Below, one piece after another: positions 49,810 to 51,208 of a stretch of 64,000 nucleotides of DNA. The notes under the pieces were generated by a model. That model was not told where the DNA came from. It made no database searches and saw nothing but the letters and a program-made list of their open reading frames with translations. A program made the translations under genes and the position numbers. Every line of letters starts with the position of its first letter. The first letter of the stretch is position 1. The stretch comes from Halorussus amylolyticus (GTDB lineage: Archaea > Halobacteriota > Halobacteria > Halobacteriales > Haladaptataceae): positions 294,917 through 358,916 of the forward strand of contig NZ_ML974130.1 of NCBI RefSeq assembly GCF_004143485.2, read 5' to 3'.

Positions 49810-50721
49810 ATGTCCCGCTACCGCGACGCCGCCCTGTTCTCCGCGCTGGCGCTGCTTTGGGGCGGCGGTTTCACGGCCATTGAGGTGGGTCTCGAAACGC
49901 TCGACCCGCTGCTGTTCGCGGCCTACCGCTTCGACCTGGGCGCGGCGGTCACGCTCCTCGCGCTGGCCGCGCTGAATCGGCTCTCGCTCCCCTCGGACCG
50001 GTCCGGCGTCCTCGGTATCGTCGCGGCTGGCACGCTCCTGGTCTTCGGCAACGTCTTCTTCCTGTTCTTCGGGCAGGTCTACACCTCCGGCTCAGTCGCC
50101 GCGGTCGTCTACAGCCTGAACCCGGTCATGACGGCCGTCTTCGCCGCGCTCTTGCTCGATACGGCTGGACTGGACTTCCGGAGTATCGTCGGCGTCGGCC
50201 TCGGCCTGCTCGGCGTCGGCATGGTCGCGCGCCCGAACCCCGCGAATCCGGGAGCCGACGCGGTGGGTGCGCTGTTGGTCTTCTGTGCGGTTCTGGCCGT
50301 CTCCTCGGGCAGCGTCCTCGTCCGGCGCTTCGACGGCGACATCGACAGCCTCTCGCTGACCGGCTGGTCGATGGCGCTCGGAGCGGTCCTGCTCCACGGC
50401 GCGAGCCTGATAGCTGGCGAATCCGTCGTGCCCCCGACCGCGGTGCCGTCGCTGGCCGCCATCGCGTACCTCGGAATCGGTGGGAGCGCCCTCGCCTACG
50501 GCATCTACTTCACCCTGCTGGAGCGGACCGGCCCGTTCGCGGTCAACCTCGTCAACTACGCCATCCCGCCGGTGGCCGCGGTGGTCGGCTGGTGGTACCT
50601 CGACGAGCGCCTGTCCGCGCTGTCGCTTCTGGGCTTCGTCGCCATCCTCGCGGGATTCCTCCTCGTGAACCGTCACGCGGTGCGGCGCGAACTGGCCAAG
50701 GTCCGCGGCGCGCCGTGGTGA
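49810..50721 (+). CDS. EamA/DMT family transporter
   Basis: 303 residues with ten predicted helices as two EamA repeats of about 145 residues. Motifs include LLWGGGFTAIEVGLE at the N-terminus and YAIPPVAAVVGWWYLDE in the second repeat. Likely an exporter of small metabolites; substrate unknown. The ATG at 49810 fits the family; the upstream open frame is within the repeats. Confidence 0.88.
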   Translation: MSRYRDAALFSALALLWGGGFTAIEVGLETLDPLLFAAYRFDLGAAVTLLALAALNRLSLPSDRSGVLGIVAAGTLLVFGNVFFLFFGQVYTSGSVAAVVYSLNPVMTAVFAALLLDTAGLDFRSIVGVGLGLLGVGMVARPNPANPGADAVGALLVFCAVLAVSSGSVLVRRFDGDIDSLSLTGWSMALGAVLLHGASLIAGESVVPPTAVPSLAAIAYLGIGGSALAYGIYFTLLERTGPFAVNLVNYAIPPVAAVVGWWYLDERLSALSLLGFVAILAGFLLVNRHAVRRELAKVRGAPW

Positions 50722-50740
50722 ATCGGGGCGTGTGACTCGT

Positions 50741-51157
50741 CTGCTCAAATCTCCGTAGTTGGAGTTTCCGCGACGCAGTGTTGCGAGAATCACAGAGAAT
50801 TCTCGCGGAGTTGCGTCGCGTAGAAACGTCCTGACGGAGATTTGAACTGGTCGAGACGGTCCGGGCGTGTGGCGCTTCGCGCCATTCCGGGCGTGCGACT
50901 CGCCTGCTCAAATCTCCGTAGTGGCGCATAAGCGGCGCAGTCGTGTGAGAGGCATAAAAGCCTCTCACGGAGTAGCGCCGCAAAATGTAGCGTCCTGACG
51001 GAGATTTGAACTGGCCCAGATGTTCCTGCTCACTTCGTTGCGCGGGCGTGCATCTGGTCTGCTCAAATCTCCGTAGATAGAGTTTCCGCGACGCGGACTC
51101 CTCGCTTCGCTCGTCGTCGTTGCGTCGCGTAGAAACGTCCTGACGGAGATTTGAACT
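50741..51157 (-). repeat. Three tRNA-Arg-derived hairpin modules
   Basis: Three modules at 50741-50848, 50904-51012 and 51059-51157 each start with CTGCTCAAATCTCCGTAG and end with CGTCCTGACGGAGATTTGAA, the latter being the complement of the tRNA-Arg 3' end (in the third it is part of the tRNA itself, 51136-51157). Interior stems are GTTTC..CGCGACGC/GCGTCGCG..GAAAC in modules 1 and 3, but GCGGCGC/GCGCCGC plus GTGAGAGGC/GCCTCTCAC in module 2. Linkers between modules also fold (CCAGATG/CATCTGG at 51016-51057; TGGCGC/GCGCCA near 50870-50884). No protein gene is present here. Confidence 0.75.
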
Positions 51158-51208
51158 CCGGTCACAGGCTCCGCAAGCCCATAGGATGGTCCACTACCCT
51201 ACCAGGAC
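51136..51208 (-). tRNA. tRNA-Arg (anticodon GCG)
   Basis: 73 nt. Acceptor GTCCTGG pairs with TCAGGAC (last pair G-T), discriminator G. Anticodon arm TGGGC TTGCGGA GCCTG gives GCG, with two wobble pairs at its base. T-arm CGGAG TTCAAAT CTCCG is perfect. No CCA is encoded. The 3' end is repeated twice downstream on the minus strand. Confidence 0.88.

Follow-up and report, generated by a model that had tools for sequence, protein, structure and literature searches.

What lies behind the tRNA-Arg(GCG) gene of Halorussus amylolyticus, and is its folding under selection? Within the whole stretch of DNA that was analysed (64,000 nt, here called the window), a sequence-only reading of positions 50741-51157 had described three modules whose interior stems differ in sequence inside identical outer arms, and had proposed either selection for a hairpin or independent insertion of different hairpins into the same frame. 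Folding of this 417-nt stretch gave -212 kcal/mol, compared with -138±5 kcal/mol for 60 dinucleotide shuffles (z -13.6). This value and the covariation of the interior hairpin described below rule out chance pairing as the source of the stems.

Organization of the array downstream of tRNA-Arg(GCG)

The stems and arms were confirmed in the window. Modules 1 and 3 share GTTTCCGCGACGC (50764-50776 and 51082-51094), GCGTCGCG (50813-50820 and 51122-51129), and GAAAC (50823-50827 and 51132-51136). Module 2 carries replacement stems, GCGGCGC (50932-50938) with GCGCCGC (50975-50981) and GTGAGAGGC (50945-50953) with GCCTCTCAC (50960-50968). The outer arms TCAAATCTCCGT (from 50745, 50908, and 51063) and ACGGAGATTTGA (from 50834, 50998, and 51143) are identical in all three modules. 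The ACGGAGATTTGA arms are the T-arm half of the tRNA itself; in module 3 this arm belongs to the tRNA gene (51136-51208). Also overlooked in the earlier reading was a second conserved hairpin, formed by the stretches that separate the modules.

The three modules are located directly 3' of tRNA-Arg(GCG) (51136..51208; ARAGORN; Rfam RF00005, 48.6 bits). This tRNA is encoded on the minus strand, and the array is therefore read on the minus strand, to which all of the following features belong. The unit, repeated in tandem, has the order tRNA 3' end, H1, T', R1, and T1. H1 is the hairpin formed by the interior stems, T' is an inverted copy of the T-arm half of its own tRNA, R1 is the second conserved hairpin, and T1 is an exact forward copy of the tRNA 3' end. 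The forward copy corresponds to the 3'-terminal 22 nt of the tRNA, AGTTCAAATCTCCGTCAGGACG, and the first copy (T0, 51136-51157) is inside the tRNA. In total, the array holds three forward copies, three T' copies, two full R1 hairpins, and one degenerate R1.

In unit 1, H1 (51075..51135), supported by covariation, contains the interior stems of module 3 and the tip GAGCGAAGCGAG. It is followed by T' (ACGGAGATTTGAGC, 51061..51074), assigned by sequence and a permutation test, and by a short-tip form of R1 (51012..51059; R1 model, 53.1 bits). An exact copy of the tRNA 3' end, T1 (50991..51012), opens unit 2, in which H1 (50920..50990) is built from the GCGGCGC and GTGAGAGGC stems with the tip CTTTTATG, and T' (50906..50919) precedes a long-tip form of R1 (50848..50904; 71.1 bits). 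Another exact copy of the tRNA 3' end (50827..50848) opens unit 3, which consists of H1 with the interior stems of module 1 (50757..50826) and T' (50743..50756) with no forward copy after it. The forward copies and the T' copies of units 2 and 3 were assigned by sequence. The array ends in a degenerate half R1 (50693..50741; 18.8 bits, E 0.0056) that runs into the end of the neighbouring gene.

Covariation of the H1 hairpin

Covariation of H1 across Halobacteria was measured by counting pair changes against shuffles and against slid partners. In 23 H1 sequences, 92.2% of the cells of helix 1 were paired and two-sided changes were found in 9 of the 10 pairs; these 23 were taken from 35 sequences after 12 that were near-identical, rearranged, or of another layout had been omitted, a choice that favours structure. 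The covariation score was 0.516. Shuffled alignments gave 0.177±0.020, with 0 of 500 reaching the score, and slid partners gave no more than 0.137. Because the sequences are related to one another and were selected, the change counts are not independent events. RNAalifold recovered the same outer stem of H1 unaided. The pairing of H1 is thus kept by compensatory change across the class, which supports selection for the hairpin. Since the stem letters change and the pairing nevertheless persists, H1 is better read as part of a working folded strand than as random repeats. Independent insertion of different hairpins is also borne out in part, as two types of tip occur on several shared base stems at tRNA-Arg(GCG) within Halorussus.

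Structure of the R1 hairpin

A set of 22 R1 spacers was assembled from 20 of 31 true matches and two own-genome tRNA loci, with one false match (L084) excluded. The pairs of stem 1 vary as Watson-Crick pairs, with 26 cells changed on both sides and 0 on one side only. In the class set of 86 distinct sequences, 86 cells were changed two-sidedly and 2 one-sidedly, and two-sided changes were seen in 8 of the 12 pairs of the R1 covariance model. Compensatory change above the controls, as expected of a conserved structured RNA, was thus found for both H1 and R1. The mismatch at column 7/67 is unpaired in 85 of 86 sequences, and a CACG/AM internal loop recurs. The tips vary, and the R1 forms range from 42 to 100 nt. 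Read on the tRNA-sense strand, 91 of 108 R1 hairpins have a GNA triloop, and one has only the opposite form, TNC. The stems are nearly free of G.U pairs (2 of 872 paired cells), below the level of tRNA helices.

Association of the units with their own tRNAs

The unit layout recurs behind many tRNAs of the same genome, with arms derived from each of them (for example, Met, Asn, and Leu). The covariance model gave 26 R1 matches below E 1e-6 in this genome (G000). Nineteen follow an Rfam-detected tRNA at a distance of no more than 1 kb, one further match is at a tRNA-Pro found by ARAGORN, one is at a contig start with a 3' copy of tRNA-Ser, and five are away from tRNAs. Elsewhere in Halorussus, R1 was at tRNAs in 18 of 20 (G012), 8 of 12 (G003), and 10 of 11 (G009) matches, and one of the remaining two in G012 is also at tRNA-Pro. 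The tRNAs carrying R1 numbered 14/46, 13/44, 8/47, and 9/46 in the four Halorussus genomes. The earlier reading was therefore too narrow, since the arms copy the tRNA T-arm, the unit includes a second hairpin, and the unit recurs at other tRNAs.

Among the class loci examined, which are high-scoring matches and lean towards tRNA-linked R1, R1 was downstream of a same-strand tRNA in 111 of 123 matches, covering 15 amino-acid types. T' matched its own tRNA at a mean of 9.24 of 11 positions, compared with 7.73 after permutation (highest, 7.94), and T1 at 11.3 of 12, compared with 8.87 (highest, 9.14; 300 permutations each). By a simple string measure in 87 of the 111 rows, the others having no usable T-loop match or being duplicates, the forward copies started 1-3 nt before TTC in 79, ended at the annotated tRNA 3' end in 57, and ended one base short of it in 12.

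The 12 exceptions to the downstream position include three arrays displaced by an inserted element (L138/L203 in Halostagnicola, L175/L224, and L182). Each adjoins a tyrosine integrase gene, whose element is located between the tRNA and the array; these integrases belong to the inserted elements and not to the units. At L153 a tRNA-Asn does lie upstream and had been missed by the script. L125-L129 are the five R1 away from tRNAs, and L130 is at a contig start. At L113 (position 1501), the 3' half of a tRNA-Gly is fused with R1, the junction lying within the T-loop, and at L188 (position 882) the unit is flipped behind tRNA-Ser; both are possibly the outcome of rearrangement at T-arm copies. 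In the genome studied here, tRNA-Ser(GGA) runs off the start of contig C9, and contig C15 starts with R1 and a 3' copy of tRNA-Ser; the two contig starts mark a point where the assembly broke within an array.

Presence and absence at orthologous tRNAs

In 14 of 18 Halorussus genomes, tRNA-Arg(GCG) is followed by at least one further forward copy, and in four by none; within the genus, the number of extra copies in the tandem arrays at one tRNA ranges from 0 to 5. Unit lengths are roughly 100-230 nt. Orthologous sites that were picked for differing R1 presence, not at random, were compared among three genomes. Units at Thr(TGT) are present in G012 and absent from G003 and G009, those at Lys(TTT) and Lys(CTT) are present in G009 and absent from G003, those at Tyr and Ser(GGA) are present in G003 and G012 and absent from G009, and those at Thr(CGT) are present in G009 and absent from G003 and G012. 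For tRNA-Asp, one of the two genes in G003 has units and none has them in G009 or G012. The flanks of filled and unfilled sites have diverged, and therefore the breakpoints are inexact and gain and loss are alike possible.

A shorter second module, CCGTCAGGACG - hairpin - CCTGACG - hairpin - CCGTCAGGACG, was also observed on the acceptor end of the same tRNA (L029, L031, L035, L036, and others at Arg-GCG; also L004, at the tRNA-Arg(CCT) of the genome studied here).

Dispersed elements away from tRNAs

A related R1 hairpin is found away from tRNAs in dispersed multi-hairpin elements that are often preceded by a TATA-like sequence. Four intergenic elements of ~245 nt in the genome studied here (L125, L126, L128, and L129, at C1 ~527.5k, C7 ~62.8k, C3 ~55.2k, and C5 ~150.2k, respectively) have the order GTGGGACT..AAAGGGGC, R1-like hairpin, and GGGGCTTTC. 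The L125 element gave a fold z of -2.9 and no Rfam match. The fifth R1 away from tRNAs, L127 (C4:89611-89663), is situated between what appear from their sequence to be ABC-transporter genes. In two genomes of one other genus (G043 and G054; L236-L255), 18 of 21 R1 are not at tRNAs but belong to a dispersed element some 300-400 nt long. By a simple string rule, an upstream TATA-like box was present in 11 of these 18; GGGGCTTT follows downstream, and this end motif is duplicated 54-58 nt further on in six. The element may be a multicopy RNA gene or a mobile element.

Taxonomic distribution

The covariance model detected R1 in 299 of 391 class genomes and 75 of 86 genera; these counts are a lower bound, since few candidates per genome were scored. 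In a phylum sample of 294 genomes, the 41 with R1 were all of the same genus or the same order, and none was found outside the order. An exact R1 pattern searched in 84,980 species gave 26 stretches, all in haloarchaeal records. No R1 was found in the viral contigs of either of two search sets or in plasmids, and the phage search gave only a chance 20-base match; a plasmid or virus origin is weakened by these results. Above the gathering score, Rfam 15 recognized only tRNAs in the window, and the dispersed elements had no match. Membership in a known RNA family was therefore rejected for the units and the dispersed elements. A description of the units was not found in the openly accessible literature searched. 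Judging from these searches, the units appear to be undescribed.

Strand and nature of the acting molecule

In 93 distinct rows (the others having no usable T-loop match or being duplicates), the T' base facing the first T of the T-loop was A 50 times and G 43 times, and in no case C or T. Folding of the sense strand pairs T' and T1 with 73 G.T against 16 A.C pairs, or 30 against 16 without the first-T position, so that the excess comes mostly from one T' position. In H1, the sense strand gives 15 G.T against 8 A.C. The preponderance of G.T over A.C favours a folded sense strand and does not distinguish RNA from single-stranded DNA.

Wobble pairs make up 15 of the 284 paired cells of H1, a share similar to the 4.9% of haloarchaeal tRNA T-stems. 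This share, together with the related R1 in the often TATA-preceded multi-hairpin elements, would point to RNA. On the other hand, the exact direct repeats, the arrays, and the presence and absence at orthologous tRNAs would point to DNA. GNA triloops are very stable in DNA. The near absence of G.U in R1 is weakened as proof of DNA action by the low G.U content of haloarchaeal tRNAs. The strand that acts is probably the tRNA-sense strand in folded form, either as an RNA trailer, which we prefer, or as a folded single-stranded-DNA recombination site; with modest confidence, the acting molecule may be RNA rather than DNA.

Proposed explanation and alternatives

Our tentative preference, held at somewhat less than even confidence, is that the array is a tandem tRNA-anchored unit whose folded sense strand is read through as the 3' trailer RNA of the tRNA. 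The sense strand would be transcribed through from the tRNA, and H1 would fold behind it. T' would pair with the copy T1 or, alternatively, with the tRNA's own T-arm. R1 has conserved mismatches and internal loops and may serve as a knob for a putative protein partner. New units would be gained, and arrays would grow, through insertion or duplication at the 3' end of the tRNA. The direct repeat left behind would run from the T-loop through the final base of the tRNA and so preserve an intact tRNA. The same-strand downstream position of R1, the matching of the arms to their own tRNA, the covariation of H1 and R1, the strand bias, and the dispersed TATA-preceded R1 are consistent with the trailer RNA. 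On the other hand, RNA pairing accounts neither for the retention in T1 of the acceptor strand as far as the final tRNA base nor for the patchy occurrence (8/47 to 14/46 tRNAs), and the scarcity of G.U in the R1 stems also argues against it. Trailers and tRNA-linked small RNAs are likewise located directly behind a tRNA with a sense-strand fold; the units differ in forming tandem arrays with tRNA-end copies and in matching no Rfam family.

A possible, though rather doubtful, reading is that T'-R1-T1 is an attC-like folded single-stranded-DNA site, with H1 as a tiny cassette and the tRNA as the anchor, and that units enter and leave at the T-loop through the action of a recombinase. The core motifs of attC are RYYYAAC (R'') and GTTRRRY (R'). 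By a simple string measure, these were found in only 2 of 111 and 0 of 111 hairpins, respectively, and membership in the integron attC sites was rejected on this basis. Among the systems described in PMC9668308 are archaeal integrons, whose cassette arrays carry attC sites. Like such arrays, the units stand in tandem behind a fixed anchor, and R1 has the features of a one-strand folded site, namely conserved unpaired bases (the 7/67 mismatch), covarying stems, and variable tips. The exact direct repeats, the varying copy number at one tRNA, the filled and unfilled orthologous sites, and the integrase gene beside three displaced arrays also favour a recombination site. Unlike integron arrays, the units have no attC cores and no known link to an IntI, are too short for cassette genes, and have a tRNA as anchor and tRNA-specific arms. 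Furthermore, no recombinase is tied to the units, the plasmids, phages, and viral contigs searched gave none, and the elements that carry an integrase seem to have inserted next to arrays that were already there.

More doubtful is a broader reading, in which a class-wide non-coding tRNA-parasitic element uses the inverted host T-arm copy to address one R1 core to many tRNAs and has its own folded-strand, possibly base-pair-guided insertion system. Hairpins of IS200/IS605 and REP elements are also short non-coding palindromic repeats. The Y1 transposase domain PF01797 was not found in G000, R1 was found at 0 of 6 Y1 loci, and an IS200/IS605 or REP-like origin was rejected. Palindrome-associated elements and small mobile repeats are among those that PMC3119063 describes for Haloquadratum. 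The units resemble all of these as short non-coding repeats with palindromes, in the case of Haloquadratum also as haloarchaeal ones, but differ in being bound to tRNAs.

It is unlikely that the array is a functionless mutational by-product, in which the palindromic T-arm leads to template switching and tandem duplication and hairpins are repaired on their own template. The A-A'-A copy order, the near absence of G.U in R1, the 'type 2' hairpins on the acceptor end of the same tRNA in several species, and the perfect hairpins inserted in the tips at L013 and L030 would fit such an origin. However, the R1 mismatches and internal loop are kept class-wide, and perfecting would erase them; nor would local switching explain why unrelated tRNAs and the dispersed elements have one R1 core in common.

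We know of no T', R1, or H1 in tRNA elements of tyrosine recombinases. Elements integrated by these enzymes at tRNA 3' ends in archaea are among those treated in PMC8371274; the units share with them the direct repeat of the tRNA 3' end, the whole tRNA, and the T-loop region as the likely crossover, and differ in being non-coding, in holding T', R1, and H1, and in being, at roughly 100-230 nt, too short for an internal integrase. That the array is the remnant of ordinary tyrosine-integrase elements, left as attachment-site copies by repeated insertion and loss, is very unlikely: the copies span the T-loop to the 3' end like attachment sites and integrase genes adjoin three displaced arrays, but T', R1, H1, and their conserved structure remain unexplained, the conservation of R1 weakens it, and R1 was in no plasmid, phage, or viral contig searched.

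Significance

Under either the RNA or the DNA reading, a structured element that Rfam and the literature searched do not contain would be tied to a large share of the tRNA genes across an archaeal class. As RNA, it would add an extra layer to archaeal pre-tRNA trailers, in which an arm complementary to the T-arm could compete with tRNA folding. As DNA, it would be a non-coding insertion system acting at a kind of site that archaeal mobile elements favour for integration, and would reveal by what means a single core comes to be directed to many tRNAs.
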